NCBI GenBank assembly: GCA_910575275.1
Contig: CAJTEE010000002.1
Coordinates: forward strand, 749,741-813,740
DNA length: 64,000 nt
Reading direction: 5' to 3'
Origin: Lachnospiraceae bacterium
Lineage (GTDB): Bacteria > Bacillota > Clostridia > Lachnospirales > Lachnospiraceae
The notes under the pieces were generated by a model. It had not been told where the DNA came from, did no database searches, and was given only the letters and a program-made list of their open reading frames with translations. The position numbers were made by a program, and so were the translations under genes. The first letter of the stretch is position 1; each line of letters opens with the position of its first letter. Below are positions 17,189-64,000 of this stretch, piece after piece.

Positions 17189-18100
17189 TTATGACAATAG
17201 CAGGATCACGGCTGTCAGTGTGATGATCCCCACCAGGATCGACATCGAGTTGACCGCGCTCGCAAGTGCCACATCCCCGTCGATCATGGACGTGTAGGGC
17301 ACTCCCAACGATGACACCGGGCCGAACATAAAGATCGCGAGCGTACGGTTTACTTCCCGTCCAAAGGGGCCGAAATTCAGGAAAAGGAGGGCTAATCCGA
17401 CGGAGATGAGGAGCCTTGCACCGATGATCAGGCCGGCCTCTCTGGCCTGATTTTTCGTGATGTGCAGCTCCAGGCCCAGACCGATCATGAGAAGCGCCAA
17501 AAAGCTGTTCGCGCCGCCCACCACCTCCGTAAAGCTGAACACAAGCTCCGGCAGACGCACATGAAACAGCGCGAGAATCGTCATGGTAATGTAGCAGTCA
17601 AAGGGCACCGAGGAAAAGAGCCGTTTGATCATCTGCCTTGGACCCCGGATTTCCCCCTTCCCGGAGATCGCGACGGCAATCGCATAGGAGGTCCCCGTAC
17701 AGATCATCGCGTTTCCCGCGTCAAACAGGCTTGCCGCCGCAACACCAAGAGGCCCCAGAAAGCTCTGCACAAACGGCATGGTAAAGCAGCCTACATTGTA
17801 GCCAGACATGTTGATCACGGCAAAGGCACGCTGTTCTTTGCTGCCGTGCAGGAACAGAAGATAGCCGACCACCACAAACAGGCCGCTGCACAAAAAGCCG
17901 ATCAGCACCGACGCCAGCATGGAAACGTCGATCGCGGCTTTTCCGAAATTATAAATGATCGCGGCCGGAAGCGTGATTTTGGTCACGAGCGCCGAAAAAA
18001 CCGCCATGTCCTGTTTGTGCAGGACTTTGCCTTTCCTCAGAGCATAGCCCAGTATGATGATCGTAATGAAGCTGATCGCTTTCGTAAATACGGTGTTCAT
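17189..18100 (-). CDS. AEC-family (auxin efflux carrier type) transporter
   Basis: 303 aa integral membrane protein with about ten helices in two five-helix halves. Motifs typical of bacterial AEC/malate-permease-like carriers are visible: ITLPAAIIYNFG near residue 50, NMSGYNVGCFTMPFVQ near 100 and GPVSSLGVPYTSM near 265. The substrate is unknown; organic acids are usual for bacterial members. It starts 36 bp from the IS remnant at 18136, so its promoter may lie in or beyond that element. Confidence 0.85.
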   Translation of the reverse strand: MNTVFTKAISFITIIILGYALRKGKVLHKQDMAVFSALVTKITLPAAIIYNFGKAAIDVSMLASVLIGFLCSGLFVVVGYLLFLHGSKEQRAFAVINMSGYNVGCFTMPFVQSFLGPLGVAAASLFDAGNAMICTGTSYAIAVAISGKGEIRGPRQMIKRLFSSVPFDCYITMTILALFHVRLPELVFSFTEVVGGANSFLALLMIGLGLELHITKNQAREAGLIIGARLLISVGLALLFLNFGPFGREVNRTLAIFMFGPVSSLGVPYTSMIDGDVALASAVNSMSILVGIITLTAVILLLS

Positions 18101-18135
18101 TTTTTTGTTGTTTCCTTTTTTGGGTGTTTTTTTAT

Positions 18136-18592
18136 CTAGAGCGTGTCTGAAAATTATTAAAATTTGGTTATTTTATCCAAATGAGGATTGATGCAAGGCA
18201 AATAAAGCCAATATAAGTAAACGCCAGTTTGTCATAGCGTGTTGCAATCCGGCGGAATGCTTTCAGTTTAAGAAAATATTTCTCAACCAGATGGCGCTCC
18301 TTATAAAGCCACCAGTCGCAGCGACGCTCAAATTTGGCTCCGTTTCTGGATGGTATCGTTGGCTCCGCGTTCCGGCCATAAATATAATTTTACCATTAGG
18401 CGGTTATCTTTGGAGGGCCGTCCGGGTCTGCTGTTTCTTTCCGCCGGAAGGAGGGGCGCGATCTGCTCCCATTCCTGGTCCGCTAATTCATAACGCCTCG
18501 TCATTACAAACACCCCTTTTTCTTTATTCGATCACAGAATTCGGGGCAAAACATATGTTTTGTGCAGTTTTTAATTTTCAAACACACTCTAG
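18136..18592. mobile_element. Internally deleted IS5-type insertion sequence (457 bp)
   Basis: The left end CTAGAGCGTGTCTGAAAA (18136-18153) and right end TTTTCAAACACACTCTAG (18575-18592) are inverted repeats with two mismatches. The intact parent would be about 0.8-0.9 kb. Inside is only the N- and C-terminal coding remnant of the transposase. The right end is identical, inverted, to the left end of the 166-bp MITE at 6398. Confidence 0.85.
18168..18504 (-). pseudogene. IS5-type transposase remnant (N-terminus joined to C-terminus, frameshifted)
   Basis: The N-terminal part reads MTRRYELADQEWEQIAPLLP and then GRPSKDNRLM, the DUF4096 start of IS5-family (IS427-like) transposases. In another frame the C-terminal part reads FERRCDWWLYKERHLVEKY and AFRRIATRYDKLAFTYIGF, ending IWIK. 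The DDE catalytic core between them is missing and the join is out of frame, so it cannot be active. Confidence 0.85.
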
Positions 18593-53425: not shown

Positions 53426-54622
53426 TCAGTTCCTCCCATACAGATCCCTCGTATATACCTTTTCCCTCACATCATCCAGGCAGCGGTCATACCGGTTCGC
53501 CAGAATGCAGTCCGTTTCCCTTTTAAACGATTCCAGATCCCTTAAGACACGGATCCCCTCAAACATCTCTCTCCCTCCCAGTAACGGTTCATAAATCAGA
53601 AGCTTTGCTCCCTTTTCCCTTAGCCGCCTCATGATCCCCCGCACCGAGCTCTGCCGGAAATTATCGCTTCCCTCCTTCATCGTTAACCGGTAAATCCCTA
53701 TGACCGGCGATTCCTTCCCCGCCTTTTCCCACACCTGCCTTGCAACAAAGTCCTTCCTCGTCCGGTTCGACTCCACGATCGCCCCGATCAGCTTCTCCGG
53801 TATATCCCGGTAGTTTGCCAAAAGCTGCTTCGTATCCTTCGGCAGGCAGTAGCCCCCATAGCCAAACGAGGGATTATTATAGTGGCCTCCTATGCGCGGG
53901 TCCAGGCACACTCCCTCTATAATCTGACGTGGATTCAGTCCCTTGGCTTCCGCATACGTATCCAGCTCGTTAAAGTAGCTCACGCGAAGCGCCAGATACG
54001 TATTCGCGAACAGCTTGACCGCCTCCGCCTCGGCTGCATGCATAATGAGCACCGGGACCGACGGCTCCAGCGCCCCTTCACGCAAAAGGAAGGCAAACTC
54101 CTCTGCCTTTTTTCGAAGCCCGGGATAGGGCTTCCCATAACCCACCAGGATTCTCGACGGATGCAGATTGTCATACAGGGCTCTGGATTCCCGGAGAAAC
54201 TCCGGGCAGAACAGCAGGCTCGCGCCGGCGTATCGTTCTGCCGTTTCTTCGGTATACCCCACCGGAACCGTGGATTTGATCACGAGGACCGCCTCCGGAT
54301 TGACCCGCAGGACCGTTTCGATCACTGCGGCCACCGCTGTGGTATCAAAAAAGTTCCGTTCCCGGTCATAATCCGTCGGCACGGCCACGATCACATAGTC
54401 CGCTTTGGCATAAGCCTCCTCCGCATTCGCAGTCACGGTCAGCTTTAAAGCCTTGTGCGAAAGATATTCTTCAATCTCCGGATCCCGTATAGGGGATTTC
54501 CCCTGCTTTAAAAGGGCGATCTTCTCCCTGTCCGTATCCACGAGCGTCACCGCGGTTTTTTGCGCCAGCAGGACCGCTAGCGACAGACCCACATACCCTG
54601 CTCCTGCAACTGCTATCTTCAT
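53426..54622 (-). CDS. UDP-glucose (nucleotide-sugar) 6-dehydrogenase
   Basis: 398 aa from the ATG at 54622, 4 nt after AGGAGGG. Oxidises a UDP-hexose to the uronic acid in two NAD-dependent steps. N-terminal [10 protein letters not shown], then [32 protein letters not shown] and the catalytic cysteine stretch [13 protein letters not shown], a variant of GGSCFPKD. It is the 3'-most gene of the glycan locus, 125 bp after the HAD gene. Supplies uronic acid precursors for surface glycan. Confidence 0.9.
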
Positions 54623-54747
54623 AGTCCCTCCTGTATGCCTCCCCCAAGCTGCTTCATCGTGGCAAGCGTCCATCCGATTCAAAGCTCAAAAGGCGCTCCT
54701 CCCTGGTATATCACCTTATGTCAACGTTTTCTCACTGGCACTCTATC

Positions 54748-56805
54748 CTACAGCAGATCTGTCAGACTCGTCGTCCTGTTAAAAAACGGATCCTCCACCT
54801 GCATACGCAGAAATCTTTCCTCCCGGATCTCTGCCTGATGGATCAGGGACAGAAAGCGTTCATCTAATTCCTTGTTGATCCGCATCTCCCCCTCCGGGCA
54901 GATACGCCTGTACGTCTCAAAATACGCCCTGATTCCTTCCTGGATTTCCTGCACACATGCTATACTCTCCGCCGGCCTCGTTTCCCTGGCGTATATCGGC
55001 ATCCCGCCGCTTGTAAATCCCCGCACAGATGGTGACGGCGCGGTCAGCACTGCCTCCAGAATATAATAGTTCTCAAAAACAGTGCTTCCCTCTTTCTCTG
55101 CCTCCCGATAAAACGGTTCAATATCCAGGCCATGCCCGCGCATTTCCTCCTCCTCAAGCCAAAGGAAATAGAACCCTTTTAAATGATTCTTCATCAATCG
55201 CTCCAGATACATCTGGCAGGTTCCCTTCGCGACAAAATCAAACAGGGCAATGTCCCCTTCACGCAGAAAAAGACGGTCTATGTACGCCTGATATGCCTTT
55301 CGTGCCAAAGACGCCCGCCCCAGAATTTCCTTTTTATATCCGGTCAGCCCGCCTTTGTCCTTTGATATACTCTCTCCGTTTATTTGGATCCCAAATCTCT
55401 CCGCCAGCTCCTCCTGCAGTGTCCCTCCAAACCGCATCCCTTCCACATACCGAATATCCTCCTCCGACTCTGCCCCCGCACAGACGGCTGCCGTCCTGGA
55501 GGTAAGAAAATAGATGGAGGTATGCTCCTCTAAAAGCTGCTCATACAGCATCCGGATCAGATAGCCGTCCCGTGCACAGAATAGGACATTGGAAATCTTC
55601 TCTCTTTCTATCCGTTCACGCAGCCAGAAAACGAAGTCTGTGATCAGCGGTGCAAAGAAGACATAGCCAATATCACGCGCCTTTTCTACGCCAAGCCTTT
55701 CCCCGGACTCTGTCACAAACGGATTATTGAACAGCCGGGATACGGCCATCCCGATCCGTATCCTGTCGGATAAGGAGTCCATGAGATCCTGCATTCCCAT
55801 ATACCCGCACAGCTCCAGAAGATCTGCCCCACTGTACAGGCGGACTGCCTCCACACTCTCACCTTCTGCCATTTCTATGTCCGTATACCTGTCATCCCCG
55901 ATATGGAGGCAGGATTTTCCCGTCAGCTCCTTCAACACCCGAAAAAGGCCCTGTGCCTTCCCTTTCCCGTATTCGCAGGAGACCAGGAGCCCGGCATATC
56001 CTTCAATCCCGAACCGTTTTAAAAGCTCCTCAATCTGCCGTTTCGTATAATACGAATCCGTGACAATATACACCGGCTTTCCCTGTTTCTTTACCGTCTC
56101 GAGGAGCTCACAAACCTCCTTCCGGGGGATAAGCAGGCTGCAGTCCGTCTGCCATTCCAATCGAGCCGCTTCTTTTGGGACAAGCTCGGAAAGTGCAAAG
56201 CTTTCCTTCATATAGGAATAAATTTCCTCCAGTGAGGGGGCGTATCTCCCCGAGAGCTCTTTTTCTGCCGCCAGCCGCTTCTGTGAAAAGCCCTCCATAT
56301 AAATTCCCCGCTTTGCGAGCTTTGCTCCAACCAGCTCGAACACATCATCCGGAAATAGAACCTGGCGCATGATAAGCGTGTCGAACAAATCGAAGCTGAC
56401 CGCCTCCTTCCCCTCTATTCTTTTCAGGATCTCTCCCCTCATAGGTCCGTCCAAGCCTGTAAAATCATACGCCGGCTCTCTTTCCGCACACAAATCGTTT
56501 CCCCGCACATCATACAGGGCTACCCCCTGTTTCCTGCACTTTCTTCCGATCCGCCTCGCGATCGCCTTGCAGGAGCCCGGACGCGCGGCGACCAAAATGA
56601 GGGATATGGAAGCCGCAAATGCCTGCTCCAGAGAAAGAACAGGAAATCCATACAGTTCCCCTTCCTCCCGGCAGCTATCCAAAAGTCCAACGACAGAAAC
56701 CGTATCCTTAAGCTCCCGAAGGACCTTCACGGCCTCCGCCCCCAGGCCATAGACAGCGATCCTCTTGCCCCGATACTCCCGAAATCTCTTTGCCGGCTCC
56801 GACAC
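54748..56805 (-). CDS. HAD-like protein with N-terminal Rossmann-like module (glycan locus)
   Basis: 685 aa, cytosolic. Residues 13-105 form the shared Rossmann-like module (RIAVYGLGAEAVKVLREL, LLDS). Next comes a HAD domain with FDLFDTL (nucleophile D139) and the later motifs IVTDSYYTKRQ and IGDDRYTDI; the second Asp of motif I is Phe, as in haloacid-dehalogenase-like members. The rest (about 340-685) resembles the C-terminal part of polysaccharide-locus HAD proteins, with LFCARDGYLIRM. Possibly a phosphatase acting on a carrier- or sugar-phosphate. No signal peptide. Confidence 0.75.
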   Translation of the reverse strand: MSEPAKRFREYRGKRIAVYGLGAEAVKVLRELKDTVSVVGLLDSCREEGELYGFPVLSLEQAFAASISLILVAARPGSCKAIARRIGRKCRKQGVALYDVRGNDLCAEREPAYDFTGLDGPMRGEILKRIEGKEAVSFDLFDTLIMRQVLFPDDVFELVGAKLAKRGIYMEGFSQKRLAAEKELSGRYAPSLEEIYSYMKESFALSELVPKEAARLEWQTDCSLLIPRKEVCELLETVKKQGKPVYIVTDSYYTKRQIEELLKRFGIEGYAGLLVSCEYGKGKAQGLFRVLKELTGKSCLHIGDDRYTDIEMAEGESVEAVRLYSGADLLELCGYMGMQDLMDSLSDRIRIGMAVSRLFNNPFVTESGERLGVEKARDIGYVFFAPLITDFVFWLRERIEREKISNVLFCARDGYLIRMLYEQLLEEHTSIYFLTSRTAAVCAGAESEEDIRYVEGMRFGGTLQEELAERFGIQINGESISKDKGGLTGYKKEILGRASLARKAYQAYIDRLFLREGDIALFDFVAKGTCQMYLERLMKNHLKGFYFLWLEEEEMRGHGLDIEPFYREAEKEGSTVFENYYILEAVLTAPSPSVRGFTSGGMPIYARETRPAESIACVQEIQEGIRAYFETYRRICPEGEMRINKELDERFLSLIHQAEIREERFLRMQVEDPFFNRTTSLTDLL

Positions 56806-56832
56806 GGCTTTTCCCCTCTTTCTTCTGCACGC

Positions 56833-58029
56833 TCAAAGCAGACCGAACGCCTGCATGGTTTCCTTGCTTGTTACAAGATTTTCGTCAACCCCGTATACCC
56901 TGCTGCCCGGATAACGAGACATGCATTCCCTATATATTTCCTCCCGCGCCCCCGCGAACATGTTGGCGATCACGATTGCATCATATTCTCTCTTTGCAAT
57001 CACCTTTGGAGCTTCCACCGGGAATCCCTGCCGGTTAAGCTCCGTGAAATCCCGATCCACCCATGCGGCAACCGTACAAAACCCTGTATCTCTCAGATAT
57101 TTCCACAGCCTCTGTCCATATGTGCCCGCACAATACAGGATAATGCGCGACCCCTTTCTCACCTTCGGGAACGGAAATAAATAATCCAGCTTCTCTGCTC
57201 CCCGATAGAAGCAGTCGGCCCTTGGCACCAGCAAAAACAGCATGTACTGCTCCCACTGCTTTCGTAAATCATACATGTGGCGGCTGCGCGAAAAAGAACG
57301 GAGCACGCTTCGGTATAATATCTCATACCGCTTGTATCCCTGCGCATCATACCTGGTATCCTTAACCATGGAGGCCGCCCTCTGCCGGTAATGATACAGG
57401 CACTCATCCAGGATATAAAGGCTCTTTGCATGCAGGAGACAGGGATAGGTGCACGCCGCATCCTCTCCCATGACGACGGCATCATCCACCTGCATCTGGT
57501 ACGGATACACGCAATCTCTGCGAAACAGCTTATCCCATACATTAGGGAAGATTCCCCACTCAAAAAATCTCCGGCCCGCTATCATCCTGGGATAAATCTC
57601 CTGTACCATCCCGGGTTTTCTGTAGCAGCCTGCTTGGATCCCATGAAAGACCGGTTTCGAAGTCCTGCCCGTATCCTCATATCTCCCGCACATCACAAGA
57701 TCGACGTTCTCCTGCTGAAGCGTTTCGAGCATATGTGCATACATATCCGGCTCAATCCAGTCATCCCCGTCCACATAGGCGATATATTCTCCTCTGGCCG
57801 CACGTAAACCGGCCTTGCGGGCGCTTACGATGCCTCCGTTCTCTTTATGGATCACCGTAATCCGAAGGTCACGTCTTTTGTATTCCTCACAAATTTCATA
57901 GCAGCCATCCGTAGAGCCGTCGTCTATCAGGAGGACCTCCAGCTCCTGATACGTTTGGCCAAGAATACTCTCGATGCATTGCCGAAGGTATGGGGCCACA
58001 TTGTATATAGGTACAATAATACTGATCAT
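56833..58029 (-). CDS. GT2 glycosyltransferase with C-terminal Rossmann-like module
   Basis: 398 aa. N-terminal GT-A fold (MISIIVPIYNVAPYLRQCIE; the DxD-type YVDGDDW) transfers a sugar from a nucleotide donor. Residues about 293-398 are an appended module beginning RIILYCAGTYGQRLWKYL with VDRD and later DAIVIANMF. The gene is 22 bp from its neighbours on both sides, so it is in the operon. No membrane helices. Donor and acceptor cannot be read. Confidence 0.87.
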   Translation of the reverse strand: MISIIVPIYNVAPYLRQCIESILGQTYQELEVLLIDDGSTDGCYEICEEYKRRDLRITVIHKENGGIVSARKAGLRAARGEYIAYVDGDDWIEPDMYAHMLETLQQENVDLVMCGRYEDTGRTSKPVFHGIQAGCYRKPGMVQEIYPRMIAGRRFFEWGIFPNVWDKLFRRDCVYPYQMQVDDAVVMGEDAACTYPCLLHAKSLYILDECLYHYRQRAASMVKDTRYDAQGYKRYEILYRSVLRSFSRSRHMYDLRKQWEQYMLFLLVPRADCFYRGAEKLDYLFPFPKVRKGSRIILYCAGTYGQRLWKYLRDTGFCTVAAWVDRDFTELNRQGFPVEAPKVIAKREYDAIVIANMFAGAREEIYRECMSRYPGSRVYGVDENLVTSKETMQAFGLL

Positions 58030-58051
58030 TCCGGATTCCGCCTTTCTCCGT

Positions 58052-59194
58052 TCAATACACGATTTTTACTGCGGCAATCCCCATCCCTTCCAGGGCTTTT
58101 TTTATCGTGTTCCTGATCTCCGTACTCTCAATCGCAAGGACGATCTGGTCAAATTCCGTATCCCGGATCCGTTCCACTTCCACGACGCCTTCCCCTGCAA
58201 ATCCCCGGGAATTCCGATCCACCCACAGAACCACGCTGCAATAATCAATCCGGCAAAGCTGCTCCCGATATGCATGTCCGACGATTCCGGCCCCGTACAG
58301 GATGATCCTTCCTCCCTTTTCCACCTTATCGAACGGAAACAGATACCGGAGCCTGGTCCCATACTCCCCATATACCCATCCGCGCAGCCCTACGGAATAC
58401 ATATAAAACGATTCGATCTGGCGCCGCAGCCCGGCATCCTTGTCAAACTGCCGGCACATTTGACGGTACAGGAGATAGAGCTTGTCAAAATACTTCTCAT
58501 CCGCAATGTAGCCCGGCGCTTCATCCCGCTTTCTCATACGGTGATAATAGTAAGAATTTCTCCTTACAGCGATCCGGTCGGCCTTCTTCAGCATGGTATA
58601 CACGACTGCCATGTCCTCTCCGTAATGAAATCCGCTGTTCTGGAGTGTATCATAAGCGGAAAGGGCCAAATCTCTTTTTACTATCTTCGTGCAGAGAGAC
58701 GGGTCAATTCCAAAATGGCCCTTCTCCCTGTCCCAGATCATATCCGGGAAGATCCGTTCCTCGATCTGCTTCCTGTCATAAAGCCCTTCTTCGCGATTTA
58801 TGTATTCTGTACTTTGATTTTCCGGGTCTATGTATCTTGTGATGCCAAACAAGACCATGTCCGTCCCACTCTGCATATCCGGCAGAGCCAGTACATAGGA
58901 ATCGACGGCAACAAAATCATCCGCATCTGCAAATGTCACATACTCACAGCAGCTTTCTTCAAGCCCCTTTTTCCTGGCCGCGATCGGGCCTTCGTTTTTT
59001 TGATGAAAGACCCGTATCCGTCCGTCGCGCCTCGCATATACCTCGCAGATTTCTCCACTCTTGTCCGTGGAGCCGTCGTCCACCAACAACAGCTCAATCT
59101 CCTCGAGCGACTGGCTTAGAATACTCTCGATACATTGCATAAGAAACCGTTCTGCATTATACACCGGCACGATCACGGAAATTCGTGTGTCCAT
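58052..59194 (-). CDS. GT2 glycosyltransferase with C-terminal Rossmann-like module (paralogue)
   Basis: 380 aa. Starts RISVIVPVYNAERFLMQCIE and has FADADDF in place of the DxD. Residues about 294-380 are the same kind of module (RIILYGAGIVGHAYREQL, VDRN, DQIVLAIES). It is a paralogue of the downstream gene, arising by duplication. 17 bp separates it from the methyltransferase gene. Role: sugar transfer within the same glycan. Confidence 0.87.
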   Translation of the reverse strand: MDTRISVIVPVYNAERFLMQCIESILSQSLEEIELLLVDDGSTDKSGEICEVYARRDGRIRVFHQKNEGPIAARKKGLEESCCEYVTFADADDFVAVDSYVLALPDMQSGTDMVLFGITRYIDPENQSTEYINREEGLYDRKQIEERIFPDMIWDREKGHFGIDPSLCTKIVKRDLALSAYDTLQNSGFHYGEDMAVVYTMLKKADRIAVRRNSYYYHRMRKRDEAPGYIADEKYFDKLYLLYRQMCRQFDKDAGLRRQIESFYMYSVGLRGWVYGEYGTRLRYLFPFDKVEKGGRIILYGAGIVGHAYREQLCRIDYCSVVLWVDRNSRGFAGEGVVEVERIRDTEFDQIVLAIESTEIRNTIKKALEGMGIAAVKIVY

Positions 59195-59211
59195 CCTGCT
59201 TCCCTTCCTTA

Positions 59212-60231
59212 TTATTTCAAAATTACGAGCGTTCCCGCCCGGTCTGCCAGGGGAAGCTTCTTTAAACGCTTTCCGGAGGCATCCTCAAACCGTTTTACTG
59301 CGGCGCGCACTCCCTCTAAAAAGAACGTATTGTAGTCATGGATAAAGATCATACCCCCCTCGGATAACCTCGGATAGAAAAAATGCAGCCCCTGATAGGT
59401 GGATTCCTCAAAATCCACGTCCAGGGAAACAAACGCATATGTCTCATCCGCCGCCTCCTTTGGCACGGAGGCCGGGAACAGTCCCTTACACACGACAGCC
59501 TTTTGCGGATTGGGCAGGGCGCATAGTACGCGTTCCACCGAGGTATCGCGGTATGCGGATACGAATCTCTCATCGCAGCGCCCCCGTGTGATCTCGCTTT
59601 TTGCCTCTGCACTGTCAAAGCCTTCAAACGTGTCAAACAGGTATAGCTTCCTCTCACGGAACAGCTCGTTTATTATGGAGGAAAAAAAGCCCCGAAAGAC
59701 ACCCAGCTCTGCGACAGCTCCTTCGACGCCGTTTTCTGTAATCTCTCTTGCCGCCAGTTCAAAGGTCCTGTAGCGAAAATAATCCTGCATATAGGCAGGT
59801 GCCGCATACCTTCCCCTTCCCAGAAGCCGCAGTGGATCTTTCTGATCCGATTCGTTCCGTTTTACCAGGCCCATTGGCTCCGTTTGCAAATCCTGAAACA
59901 ATTCCGGCGAGACAGCTTCCAAACGAAGAAATAACTCCCTCAGAACGGCAGCCTGGACATTATCCGTCAGCACCAGCTTATCCGTGTCTATTTCCAGCCC
60001 CCTGCATTGCTCCAGGATTTCCTCAAAATATTCATTCGCAATTACCATATAATCCACGTAGGACATAATTTCTGCGGCTTCCTCTGGCCTATAGACCGGC
60101 CGGCCCATGAAATCGCTCCCCTTCTGATATGTATCCACAAATCCTTCTGTCTCACAGGCGTCAAAACAGCCCCTGTCCAAAAGTTTCTTTGCCCGCTCCC
60201 CTGTTCCCCAAATCAAGATGGTATGCTTCAT
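59212..60231 (-). CDS. TylF/MycF-like O-methyltransferase with N-terminal Rossmann-like module
   Basis: 339 aa from the ATG at 60231. Residues 1-95 are the shared module (TILIWGTGERAKKLLDRG, then VIANEYFEEI). The second part is a TylF/MycF type SAM-dependent methyltransferase (VEGAVAELGVFRGFFSSIIN; LDVDFEESTYQGL; IHDYN), which in macrolide pathways O-methylates sugars. Suggests methylation of a glycan residue. The start overlaps the radical SAM gene as ATGA. Confidence 0.85.
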   Translation of the reverse strand: MKHTILIWGTGERAKKLLDRGCFDACETEGFVDTYQKGSDFMGRPVYRPEEAAEIMSYVDYMVIANEYFEEILEQCRGLEIDTDKLVLTDNVQAAVLRELFLRLEAVSPELFQDLQTEPMGLVKRNESDQKDPLRLLGRGRYAAPAYMQDYFRYRTFELAAREITENGVEGAVAELGVFRGFFSSIINELFRERKLYLFDTFEGFDSAEAKSEITRGRCDERFVSAYRDTSVERVLCALPNPQKAVVCKGLFPASVPKEAADETYAFVSLDVDFEESTYQGLHFFYPRLSEGGMIFIHDYNTFFLEGVRAAVKRFEDASGKRLKKLPLADRAGTLVILK

Positions 60232-61454
60232 CGAACCTCTCTCCTTTTCCATGCATTCCTGCTGTACTGTCTGCATGATATCTGCTCCGCCGCCGGAATC
60301 GGATATCGGACCGCATCGGCCCCCCGGCAATGGTTGCACATCGCAAGATATCCCCGTTCCGAATAGCCCATTTGGAACTCCATCAGGAGCTTTTTGCCAT
60401 CCCCTTCCAGTCGCGCCAGATCCAGATAATCCTTATCTCCCAGATTCATCCGCAGGTTCTCCGATACGCTCCGCGCCATAACGCAGTAATAGTACCTGCT
60501 TCCACGGATCTCCCTGCATGGTGTTTTGCAGCGTTCAAACGTTTTCAAAAGCTCTGCCTCTTGCCACCCCCAGTCAACGCTTTCAAAGCCGTAATCCACC
60601 CACCTCTGCTCTTTGTCCCCCAGCACATAGTCGATACGGCTCTCCTCCAGACGTTTTAGCAGCTTTTTATACTGCTCCTCCAAACGTTCTATCGCAGACG
60701 AATAATTTGAGATGCGGATTAACACATCGTACCTCTTACATGCGTCAAGTACCGCCTGACAGGGCAGGATGGTTCCATTTGTCGTAATGGAAAAAACACT
60801 CATTTTATCACGATACCGTTCCCCGATATACGAAATAATTTCGGGCAGCCCCGCATACAGGAACGGCTCCCCTCCTATCAGAACGAATTCGCGCATCAAG
60901 TCGATTTTTCCGAAAAGGCAGTCTGCACTTTCCTTTGCCGTTTCCAGACTCATATCCGCCCTGCTTTTATCAACCGCGTAGCAGGCATGTGCACACTTTT
61001 TGCATTTCAGACTGCACCGTTCTGTCAGGCATATCTGTACAATGTCCACAAAAAGCCGGCCAAATTCATACACGGACAGAATCGGAAAGATGCGCTCCAT
61101 AAATTCCGTCGCCGTGTAAAAATCCTGTTTTTTTTTCAAGCCCGCCCCAAGAAGCTGGTTTTCCATGGCCGGAATATGTTTTCTGTCCGCCGCAATCACG
61201 AGCAGGCCGTTCCTTTGCTCCTCTCTGTACGTTTGCAGAGAAAGAACCTCTGCGCCGTCCACACCGGTTCTCTGCTTATTTTCATCATTATCGAGGAATC
61301 CGGCAAAGCAGCCTGTCTTCACAAAGACAGCTTTCACTTCCCGGCCAATCCTCCCCGCCCCAAAAATATACAATTTTTTCTCTTTATCATGAAACAGACG
61401 GCATAACTGTTCCCCAGCCGAATCAAGCTCATGACCCTTATTTGTCCATTTCAT
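60228..61454 (-). CDS. Radical SAM enzyme with N-terminal Rossmann-like module
   Basis: 408 aa from the ATG at 61454. Residues about 26-110 are the module (KLYIFGAGRIGREVKAVF, FLDND). The radical SAM core follows with the 4Fe-4S motif C147-x3-C151-x2-C154 in CSLKCKKC, and GGEPF and SITTNGT. A C-terminal CNHC with other Cys could bind a second cluster. The substrate may be a sugar or carrier, because the locus is glycan-related. Radical SAM enzymes are less common in such loci. Confidence 0.85.
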   Translation of the reverse strand: MKWTNKGHELDSAGEQLCRLFHDKEKKLYIFGAGRIGREVKAVFVKTGCFAGFLDNDENKQRTGVDGAEVLSLQTYREEQRNGLLVIAADRKHIPAMENQLLGAGLKKKQDFYTATEFMERIFPILSVYEFGRLFVDIVQICLTERCSLKCKKCAHACYAVDKSRADMSLETAKESADCLFGKIDLMREFVLIGGEPFLYAGLPEIISYIGERYRDKMSVFSITTNGTILPCQAVLDACKRYDVLIRISNYSSAIERLEEQYKKLLKRLEESRIDYVLGDKEQRWVDYGFESVDWGWQEAELLKTFERCKTPCREIRGSRYYYCVMARSVSENLRMNLGDKDYLDLARLEGDGKKLLMEFQMGYSERGYLAMCNHCRGADAVRYPIPAAEQISCRQYSRNAWKRREVR

Positions 61455-61495
61455 TCTCTCTCCCACCTCTTTCTGATTTCTTTGTCCTGTCAGGC

Positions 61496-62995
61496 TCATC
61501 TGGCTTCCCGCAGCAGAGTCTCAATAGACAGCAGTCGATCCTTTTTACCCGCAAACATTTCCCTGATCTCATCAAAGAAATACCAGGAGGCTACAAGCAT
61601 CACATCAAATTCAGGTATCTTTTCCGTGGGCAGATAGACAGGATATCCCACATGCTGCTTATCTTTCTGCTGATCAACAACGGCGACAATTTCTATCTCG
61701 CTCCCTGCCAGCTCCCAGAGCAAATGCCGGCCAAAAATTCCTAACCCATATATGGCAACGGTCCGTACTCCTCGTTTTAAAAGATATTCCGCCAGGCTCA
61801 CACCATTTTCCCGCATCCGCATCCATTGGTCCAACAGCTTCAAGTAATTTTCGGCCTTTTCCATTCTCCTTCTCAGGGCGGCGGCCTGCCGGTTCTCTGC
61901 TCTTTCACCGACATATTTCAAACGTTTTTCCGAAAACGTTCTTTTTGCATATGAAATCTTCTCCAAATACCTCATTCCATATCTTTCATCCGGCTCTAAA
62001 TGCATTCCCTCTCCCCATTCGTTCCATGCATTCAGAAAAACAATGTCCATTCCGTTTTCCGCATTTTTTGCCATGAGCTCTGACAAATACTCTCCAAACC
62101 GTTCTGGCGTTGCACCTTCGATGATAACTCCCGCTTTCCCCTGTCTGGGCGTATCGTCATATCCTGTAAATCCGCTAAAATAGGTTCGAAACCCATTCTC
62201 CTGACTCTGCAAAATGTTCTGCCAAACCTCTTGATATTGGAGCCGAAACGTGTGCCTGCCGGGAACACCGTCCAAAATTCCCTGCTTTCCGTGCGCCGGT
62301 TCAAGGAATATCTGCGCATCCAGTCCTTTCGTGCGTCCCTCACAGCGGCCTCCTATGACATAAATGCCTGGAAGCCCTGCCTCCCTGGCCCACATTCGCC
62401 AGCATTCTAGCATCTCACGCAGACATGTAATATCAGCCGTGTTATAGATCATAAACAAGGGACTCCCCTCGACTGTGATATACCGACTGTCTCTGAAAAA
62501 CGGAAGAAGATATGCAAAGTGCTCTTTCCACTGCCGTCTTGTCCCATATTTCTGCTCCAAGAGTATTCCGTTTCTGCTTTCGGGTTCCTCTTTTTCGTAA
62601 AGGGTCGACCATACATCTGCATCCTGAAAGCCGCTCCATGATCTGGCCCATGTTGGATTCGCCCAGCAGAAGCAGAACGGCATCTGTATCTCCTTCCAAT
62701 CCAACAGATTCTCTGCCGGCTTCTCCAGAATTTTTCTGCCGTCTTTAAACCAGTAATGATACATGCAGACTCCGTCCACTTCATACTTGTGCATCAAATT
62801 CGCCTGCCATTGCATGGTCTTTTTATCCAGCAAGTCATAATAATTTTTATTTAACGGTACATGGGGCTGGTAATGGCCCTGAAATAAAGGCCTGGCATTC
62901 CGAGCGCTTACCCAGTCCGTAAACCCTTCTCCCCACCAAAGGTCATTCTCCCTGACCTTATGAAACTGTGGAAGATACATTGCCAACACTTTCAT
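61496..62995 (-). CDS. WbsX/GH99-like protein with C-terminal Rossmann-like module
   Basis: 499 aa. The N-terminal 350 residues are of WbsX (glycosyltransferase-associated GH99-like) type: MKVLAMYLPQFHKVRENDLW, WGEGFTDWV, PHVPLN, and the acid-rich FLNAWNEWGEG. Residues about 408-499 are the module (VRTVAIYGLGIFGRHLLWEL, VVDQQ, VMLVASWYF). WbsX proteins are found in O-antigen-type loci of unknown mechanism. It is the second visible gene in transcription order, 41 bp before the radical SAM gene. Confidence 0.85.
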   Translation of the reverse strand: MKVLAMYLPQFHKVRENDLWWGEGFTDWVSARNARPLFQGHYQPHVPLNKNYYDLLDKKTMQWQANLMHKYEVDGVCMYHYWFKDGRKILEKPAENLLDWKEIQMPFCFCWANPTWARSWSGFQDADVWSTLYEKEEPESRNGILLEQKYGTRRQWKEHFAYLLPFFRDSRYITVEGSPLFMIYNTADITCLREMLECWRMWAREAGLPGIYVIGGRCEGRTKGLDAQIFLEPAHGKQGILDGVPGRHTFRLQYQEVWQNILQSQENGFRTYFSGFTGYDDTPRQGKAGVIIEGATPERFGEYLSELMAKNAENGMDIVFLNAWNEWGEGMHLEPDERYGMRYLEKISYAKRTFSEKRLKYVGERAENRQAAALRRRMEKAENYLKLLDQWMRMRENGVSLAEYLLKRGVRTVAIYGLGIFGRHLLWELAGSEIEIVAVVDQQKDKQHVGYPVYLPTEKIPEFDVMLVASWYFFDEIREMFAGKKDRLLSIETLLREAR

Positions 62996-63063
62996 AGACT
63001 CCTCCTGTCCCCACAGGCACCTTCACTCTGACTCGTATCAATCGCGACCTTTGGACTTTTTTG

Positions 63064-63849
63064 TTAATCCGGACAAAACTCCTCCAAATTCAACACCTTT
63101 AAATCGGGGTTCTTTTCCAACAAATATTGATATATTTTTTGATTCGAAGCAACGATCAGTCCGGTTCCTTGCAAAAGTATTCCTGTGTGGATGATTGCAT
63201 TGCCATACGCGGTCCTTCTGCCCACGTTATCATTTTTTATATCCGCGACCCCGTTTAACTCAATATTCTGCTCCCCACAGAACCTCTGGAAAGCCTCCCC
63301 TCTTTTTCCCAGCCCCCATAAATAAACAAGCCCCTGGGAGAAGACCGCCTGCTTTAGTTGAATCGAAGACGCCCGCATCTGTTCCAGGAAAATTTCCGTC
63401 AGGTGAAACCAACCGCTTTCATACGGAAAACTCGTTATTTTTTCCACATAAAAATTCAGGGTTCTATCCAGGAATTGAATCGGATTTTCCGTAAAAAATT
63501 GAGTCAGCAGGCTATAAAATTCCTGATTATACGTTTCGTTGCAGCTTGTCCTCATTAAACCCTTTATTCCGATCCGCAAAAGCAACGCACTGATCCAATG
63601 CAGCAGCAAAGCTTTATGTGTACGATTCTTTTCCAATGTCTCTTTTAATAACATAGCGGCTCGATAAAAATTTACCGGATTTCGATTGGCAGAAATCTGT
63701 GTTCGGGTTCCTGTTCGATAAGAAACCGCCGGCGGCTCCCCAAGATAACTTTTTCTTTTTGCACAGATCATCACCATACATGAGAAAAAAACATCGTTTA
63801 ATGACGGCAGAGACTGAAAATAAATCAGAGTGTAGACAAAGTCCCGCAC
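63064..63849 (-). pseudogene. C-terminal part of a GT2 glycosyltransferase with Rossmann-like module, cut by an IS
   Basis: The open frame has 261 codons. Residues 10-50 match the interior of gut-type GT2 proteins (FQSLPSLNDVFFSCMVM, then a YRTGTRTQISANR). The catalytic N-terminal GT-A half is missing. Residues about 173-261 are the shared module (LVYLWGLGKRGEAFQRF). The first six codons derive from the neighbouring IS end at 63831, so the gene was probably broken by that insertion. An intact allele would encode about 450 aa. Any translated product lacks the sugar-nucleotide site. Confidence 0.75.
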
Positions 63850-64000
63850 TTTTGTGTGGGATTTTTCTATGATAAATGCTGAAAATCCAGTATTATTGCG
63901 GCTTTTAAGGTGCTTTTCTGATATAATAGAAGTATCAAATCAAGGCAGGTATTTCTACTTATGATGACGCAGAATGCAGATAAAAAGAGAGAACAGATCC
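63831..64000 (+). mobile_element. IS1182-like insertion sequence, left end only
   Basis: The element begins near TGTAGACAAAGTCCC (63831) with a subterminal hairpin TCCCGCAC/GTGTGGGA (63842-63861). A TATAAT box at 63922-63927 and a transposase start at 63961 follow. The rest is beyond the window. Family assignment rests on the start of the protein and on the arrangement. Confidence 0.6.
63961..64000 (+). CDS. Transposase N-terminus, IS1182-family-like (partial)
   Basis: The first 13 codons read MMTQNADKKREQI, which resembles the start of IS1182-family (DDE) transposases as I remember them. The remainder is outside the window. Two ATG codons in tandem; no strong ribosome site, only GGCAGG at a distance. 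Confidence 0.5.
   Translation, partial: MMTQNADKKREQI

Follow-up and report, generated by a model that had tools for sequence, protein, structure and literature searches.

Seven consecutive open reading frames (ORFs) at one end of a 64,000-nucleotide stretch of DNA from a Lachnospiraceae bacterium (assembly GCA_910575275.1, contig CAJTEE010000002.1, positions 749,741 to 813,740; hereafter the window) encode glycan-locus proteins of unrelated families that share a small Rossmann-like module. All seven are located on the minus strand, between positions 54748 and 63849, and encode a HAD-type protein, two family 2 glycosyltransferases (GT2), a TylF-like methyltransferase, a radical SAM protein, a WbsX-type protein and a truncated GT2-like protein. 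Comparison of the sequences by profiles confirmed that the seven segments are one homologous module. Moreover, whether an enzyme carries this module (is tagged) goes with the locus. The window forms the terminal part of contig C2 in a genome of 4.03 Mb, and the contig stops where the window does.

One homologous module in seven enzymes

A first-pass annotation had described a segment of the same form in each of these proteins, N-terminal in three and C-terminal in four. Each ORF was checked and the segment was found in all of them, at the N-terminus of the HAD, TylF-like and radical SAM proteins and at the C-terminus of the other four. A GxGxxG motif and an acidic residue closing strand 2 are visible in the alignment of the seven, with an invariant G, D and G. 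The motif departs from consensus in three proteins: its last G is an A in the HAD and TylF-like proteins and its first G is a C in one of the glycosyltransferases (GT2b). The annotation had also named coverage of all segments by one profile as a result that would support it. When a profile built from six segments was run against the held-out seventh (E values computed for 5000 sequences), six were clearly recovered, i.e. those of GT2a (8e-9), GT2b (5e-9), the WbsX protein (5e-9), the TylF-like protein (1e-6), the HAD protein (2e-5) and the radical SAM protein (4e-4), and that of the truncated GT2 only marginally (0.028). The real segments reached 13.0-34.6 bits versus 6.6-10.6 bits for the best of 2000 shuffles. 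Among 1068 untagged ORFs, none scored as high as the held-out segment for six of the segments. Three did for the truncated GT2, whose segment is therefore weak on its own. The leave-one-out result rules out seven unrelated Rossmann folds.

The HAD-type protein (685 amino acids (aa), 54748-56805; PF00702, E 3e-10, residues 135-314) carries its module at 56476-56784. It is followed by GT2b (398 aa, 56833-58029; PF00535, E 3e-40, residues 3-125; module at 56881-57168) and GT2a (380 aa, 58052-59194; PF00535, E 2e-32; module at 58055-58330). GT2a has a paralogue on contig C6 of the same genome (G000:C6:172911-174035) and the likeness spans residues 4-378. The TylF-like methyltransferase, called at 59212-60339 (PF05711, E 2.5e-20, residues 120-355), has its module at 59950-60234. 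As called, this ORF overlaps by 112 bases (60228-60339) that of the radical SAM protein. Since its module begins near a Met at 60234, its true start probably lies near this position, later than called.

The radical SAM protein (60228-61499; module at 61101-61394) contains a CxxxCxxC motif and is predicted to adopt a SpeY-like twitch fold. The likeness to SpeY (7wzv), a twitch radical SAM dehydrogenase, covers only the part that follows the module. The WbsX-type protein (499 aa, 61496-62995; PF14307, E 2e-114, residues 3-347) carries its module at 61499-61780. The last gene, at the contig end (63064-63849; module, the weakest of the seven, at 63067-63348), is the 3' part of a GT2-like gene; its GT2 nature was judged by eye and the ORF had no Pfam match in the scan of the seven proteins. 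It had been annotated as a cut GT2, but the window edge alone does not account for its truncation: in the region 63064-64000, its frame contains stops upstream of 63849, which points to a frameshift, a disrupted gene or a mistake in the assembly of the contig end.

An accessory domain that marks whole loci

As the first-pass annotation had proposed, the module is appended to these enzymes rather than being the normal fold of each family: untagged homologues were found, most clearly for GT2, radical SAM and WbsX, and they rule out the latter possibility. Among the ORFs compared, tagged and untagged homologues number 12 and 2 for HAD (the untagged HAD and TylF homologues are either remote, with 26-28% identity, or short ORFs located where a stretch ends), 134 and 57 for GT2, 10 and 3 for TylF, 80 and 15 for radical SAM (some of the untagged ones being pieces, at an edge in L091 and split across two ORFs in L092) and 10 and 1 for WbsX. 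ORFs were called mechanically and overlaps settled by length (GT2a of the window was lost to a longer antisense ORF); these homologue pairs and the ORF counts given below for the radical SAM loci, for all stretches together, for the own genome, for flagellin-centred stretches and for membrane proteins are approximate.

In the genome that holds the window, the seven-segment profile matched 39 places at an E value of 0.1 or better, 36 of them within five loci: C2:806-813k (the window), C2:576-580k, C6:159-181k, C3:238-250k and C2:284-299k. Later searches found further places neighbouring these five loci. Thirty-eight ORFs of their stretches are tagged at E 0.05 (no overlap filter), and 40 of 305 with a wider profile and flanking stretches. 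The partners, according to Pfam, are HAD, hexapeptide, GT2 plus GT4, GT2, FrhB, radical SAM, NKWYS, GT-D, a DXD-type glycosyltransferase, FkbM, TylF, Methyltransf_24, RgpF, a true C-methyltransferase and WbsX. Three ORFs carry two modules each, the first copy being weak in one of them.

Tagging goes by locus. In ten other genomes, 20 of the 22 GT2s located near at least three other modules are tagged, versus 1 of the 93 located elsewhere. In the own genome, tags were found on 4 of the 5 GT2s encoded in tagged regions or flanking them and on none of the 17 from other loci. These ten genomes, as well as the 16 used for flagellin distances (see below), were chosen for holding modules. Furthermore, 803 radical SAM homologues were found at E 0.001 among the candidates scored. 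In 80 radical SAM loci, mostly from Lachnospiraceae (picked via a tagged enzyme; the best 80 of 95), 446 of 1282 ORFs are tagged and ten loci have no tag. Loci with three or more tags are frequent, as anticipated by the annotation, and the longest run, in L068, has 11 tagged ORFs in a row. With the own and additional stretches, 571 of 1639 ORFs are tagged. Representatives of 111 of the 112 partner groups (one per group, the truncated GT2 being omitted) match 62 Pfam families, for instance pyruvyltransferase, LicD, TupA-like ATP-grasp and glycerophosphotransferase.

Module matches occur in 29 of 60 genomes of a family sample (at 1e-5) and in 22 of 199 of a phylum sample (at 1e-8), tallies that include the own genome and single Rex-length matches. 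In the ten-genome survey, 10 of 98 matches lie in open frames of 205-240 aa; these are probably Rex, as judged from their length, and were excluded from the cluster counts.

Modules are only about 20% identical to each other. In 225 of 285 comparisons, the closest copy from a different locus had the same partner class, and copies resemble each other no more within a locus (14.3 bits) than between loci (13.7 bits). Since modules follow the enzyme family and same-locus copies are no closer, lineages of tagged enzymes gather in loci, and the tags are not simply spreading inside a locus. We found no description of a locus-wide module of this kind in the titles and abstract openings of the papers listed by searches of an open-access library (up to 15 papers each).

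Enzymes with and without the module

Tagged stretches also contain untagged ORFs. Among 116 of them (the non-redundant set of 130; first 25 Pfam families tallied), we found Epimerase (8), cytidylyltransferase (7), nucleotidyltransferase (5) and NeuB (3). None of these precursor families is among the 25 commonest of the 62 families on the 111 tagged representatives, which suggests that the tag is carried mainly by assembly and modification enzymes. In the window, the gene next to the seven encodes a UDP-glucose 6-dehydrogenase involved in precursor supply (53426-54682, minus strand; PF03721, E 1.2e-34), on which the module profile found no match; in the first 53 kb, none of the 51 ORFs is tagged.

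Proteins with at least five predicted membrane segments are nearly absent from tagged stretches: 1 of 707 ORFs inside versus 12 of 329 outside in the same loci, and 5 of 46, 11 of 129 and 31 of 577 in other controls (hydropathy only; the ORFs inside have 150 aa or more and lie from the first to the last tag of loci that carry a minimum of five).

Some proteins consist of little else than the module. A hydrophobic N-terminus was predicted for 14 of the 31 tagged ORFs that do not exceed 200 aa, a set which includes a few pieces of split genes (as in L092), versus 30 of the 540 larger ones. Module-only proteins have about 155-181 aa, e.g. L044:16969-17439 and L041:18205-18750 (L044 is an own-genome locus and L041 a stretch of own contig C6). 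In several of them, a QW-type stretch precedes the module, as in the C-terminus of WbsX. The ORF at L044:16969-17439, whose N-terminus falls under the hydropathy threshold, overlaps an untagged WbsX gene (17427-18560).

The gene of a GTPase/APS-kinase fusion has that of a module-only protein as its neighbour and that of a tagged NKWYS-type protein in its vicinity (L041:14298-18750, i.e. G000:C6:162-167k). One of the tagged NKWYS proteins of L044 (L044:4058-8057) matches sulfotransferases below the cut-off. The glycan made by such loci is perhaps sulfated. In the same stretch of C6, a 1082-aa protein (L041:6008-9253) combines FrhB-type domains with a citrate lyase ligase C-terminal domain, a family also found on a tagged representative. 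IS605 OrfB-type transposase genes lie near two tagged loci (L041:1067-2266 and L043:421-1725).

Fold and conserved nucleotide pocket

The module of the WbsX protein, modelled alone, is predicted to be a compact Rossmann fold of about 95 residues (pLDDT 94.4). The structures closest to the model are 2g6t, Rex repressors and the PglF-type domain 3nkl, in a ranking taken from a second aligner; with the isolated module as query, Foldseek alone gave no match that reached E 0.001. By fold as well as by sequence, Rex ranks among the nearest, and the domain of WbaP is also a relative by profile and fold.

In a Pfam scan of the whole proteins and of the modules alone, no model reached its cut-off on any of the seven segments. 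The matches below cut-off are to PglD_N, C2185-like_N, the C-methyltransferase C-terminal domain and NAD-binding models. The resemblance to PF08484 and PglD-type proteins mentioned by the annotation is real, but stays under the cut-offs on all seven: the WbsX protein reaches 14.6 bits with PF08484 (cut-off 23.5 bits), and the radical SAM module, the best of the seven with PglD_N (PF17836, cut-off 23.4 bits), 20.7 bits. Only the TylF-like protein matches C2185-like_N (PF22674, cut-off 27 bits), with 14.5 bits for the whole protein and 18.9 for the module alone. For PF13727 (CoA_binding_3, cut-off 25 bits), no match is listed on the seven; a TylF paralogue reaches 18.4-19.3 bits, under the cut-off.

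Outside the core, the best conserved columns of 452 modules are the aromatic residue before the turn (99%), G12 (98%), G14 (89%) and D36 (88%), followed more weakly by G17, columns 37-38 and two loop glycines. This region of the aromatic residue, G12, G14 and D36 is the nucleotide site of Rossmann folds. D36 is kept in all 16 module-only proteins (picked by eye). The GxGxxG motif and the Asp after strand 2, as well as the kinship with Rex and the WbaP domain, suggest that the pocket of each module would bind a nucleotide. Rex and RCK domains sit in dimer interfaces. Of the relatives for which a ligand has been measured, Rex (NAD) and the WbaP domain (uridine nucleotides) are the closest. According to the WbaP study, its domain is stabilised by UMP, UDP and UTP and destabilised by UDP-Gal, and supplies most dimer contacts; its authors propose feedback by pathway side-products for this domain and for PglF-like dehydratases, and a reviewer remarked that inhibition by UMP may also take place at the active site (eLife 91125).

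Proximity to flagellin genes

In 16 genomes, 12 of 21 clusters of modules (one of which, G112, has just two modules) lie within 30 kb of a flagellin gene, versus 1.9 expected if placement along the genome were even. Two clusters of the own genome have a flagellin gene 8 kb away. Of 30 named loci, whose contigs were paired by length, at least 10 have one no farther than 27 kb from the stretch edge. This proximity and the near-absence of multi-pass membrane proteins make cytoplasmic flagellin glycosylation more likely than capsule synthesis for many tagged loci. For the locus of the window, a role in flagellin modification is suggested by analogy only.

Possible roles of the module

We tentatively propose that one module copy per enzyme binds a nucleotide and that paired copies hold and switch the enzymes of one cytoplasmic glycan, probably on flagellin; this is a possible rather than a probable explanation. 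Copies of the module would pair with each other, as suggested by the position of Rex, RCK and WbaP domains in dimer interfaces. This pairing would hold together, and switch together, the assembly enzymes of the glycan, and the tagged enzymes may be recruited to module-only proteins that have a hydrophobic N-terminus. In a more far-reaching version, which appears unlikely, a universal nucleotide-gated tag would assemble whole flagellin-glycosylation lines on a platform of membrane-anchored tag-only proteins; a radical SAM oxidase would carry it, as would glycosyltransferases, methyltransferases and enzymes resembling acyl-, sulfo- and pyruvyltransferases.

Several observations weigh against the proposed pairing and switching on flagellin. 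Concerning the pocket, G14 is kept in just 44% of the module-only proteins, and D36 is a Val in all five RgpF-type modules (L043:8183-15210; L044:13187-15256), which perhaps bind a different ligand or none. Besides the two loop glycines, no column outside core and pocket is among the 20 best conserved of the 452 modules; because a universal docking surface might be expected to show, this weighs against docking. A locus-specific docking code is likewise unsupported, since modules from the same locus are no more alike than those from different loci. Untagged GT2 (12 of 116) and GT4 (11 of 116) proteins are also encoded within tagged stretches. Concerning flagellin, the nearest flagellin gene on the contig is 210 kb away from the cluster of the window, and for 9 of the 21 clusters in total, flagellin is either absent from the contig or over 30 kb away. 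Only 9 of 40 flagellin-centred stretches have tags, and 2 of 40 have three or more. PF00669 matches are found in all 22 module-bearing genomes of the phylum sample, but also in 167 of the 199 genomes overall; the link at the genome level is therefore weak, and explaining tagging simply by flagellated genomes says little.

The distance to flagellin is also in favor of a different role for the window, whose locus could make an ordinary surface polysaccharide (capsule or similar), the flagellin link being limited to other tagged loci. We consider this a serious possibility, although not the probable one: the contig ends at the locus, and WbsX, RgpF and UDP-glucose dehydrogenase are common in polysaccharide loci. 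However, the locus shares the order WbsX-radical SAM-TylF-GT2 with that of C6, its HAD protein has a relative in a cluster whose far end is 8 kb from flagellin, and tagged stretches lack flippase-like proteins, as judged from hydropathy.

The conserved pocket would equally be explained if the module were only a feedback sensor, each copy throttling its own enzyme, with no assembly, in response to a bound nucleotide, be it UMP, UDP, a different product or NAD(H). The response of the WbaP domain to uridine nucleotides and the feedback proposed for it (eLife 91125) argue for such sensing, as does the place of Rex among the nearest folds and sequences. However, sensing alone does not explain module-only proteins with a hydrophobic N-terminus, and it leaves unexplained the near all-or-none tagging by locus and the tag-free precursor enzymes. 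We consider it rather unlikely.

The distribution of tags on transferases and modifying enzymes, and not on precursor synthesis, would also fit recognition of the acceptor, with the module binding flagellin or the chaperone of flagellin, or else a common group of the glycan being built. There are precedents: Maf1 touches flagellin directly in the cytoplasm (PMC4065374), and one kind of flagellin transferase owes its acceptor specificity to a TPR domain (PMC13317340). However, protein binding needs neither GxGxxG nor the Asp, yet these are the best conserved sites outside the core, and the nine clusters remote from flagellin also speak against it, so that this role is improbable. Finally, a passive leftover, i.e. 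an old fusion retained as a ligand-free folding or spacer domain, would account for modules following their enzyme family, but is very unlikely given the conservation of the pocket at such low identity and the segregation of tagging by locus.

If true, the proposed nucleotide-dependent pairing would mean that a single small domain coordinates an entire biosynthetic line, which would be unusual. In any case, the function of the domain is now directly testable, tagged pathways can be searched for by the sequence of the module, and many ORFs of tagged loci that had no assignment receive a first hint.

Comparison with known domains and systems

Clostridium flagellar glycosylation islands carry variable glycosyltransferase, methyltransferase and nonulosonate genes between flgB and fliD, and the accessible part of their description mentions no shared module (PMC13317340). 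By contrast with these islands, the link of tagged loci with flagellin rests on distance, the locus of the window itself being 210 kb away.

Among domain families, C2185-like_N, whose solved member 2g6t (C. acetobutylicum) shares the fold predicted for the module, matches four places of the genome at E 0.01, two of them over the cut-off, versus about 40 tagged ORFs. Several modules match PglD_N or PF08484, and a few of those in other loci exceed the cut-off (33.0 and 31.9 bits for PglD_N in L044). Furthermore, no hexapeptide family, as in the acetyltransferase domain of PglD-type proteins, was found by Pfam on the seven proteins. The tagged C3 locus does encode a true C-methyltransferase (PF08484, E 9e-60).

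Rex, which binds NAD and carries a DNA-binding domain, has an NAD(H) Rossmann domain that shares with the module the GxGxxG motif and the acidic residue closing strand 2; its N-terminal DNA-binding domain is not among the Pfam matches of the seven tagged proteins. The PglF-type domain (3nkl, deposited as UDP-D-quinovosamine 4-dehydrogenase) belongs to a single pathway enzyme and is not known as a locus-wide tag. The domain of WbaP (PF13727) follows a four-helix membrane bundle and dimerises via a swapped beta-hairpin; only two proteins of the own genome exceed the PF13727 cut-off, both encoded outside tagged loci. WbaP-type domains occur on one or two enzyme types, whereas the module of the window is a bare domain of about 95 residues carried by many families. 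Accessory Rossmann domains are known on one or two enzymes of a glycan pathway. Here, such a domain is carried by most assembly enzymes of a locus, which are of unrelated families, and it sets whole loci apart from the other glycan loci of the genome, in which it is lacking.

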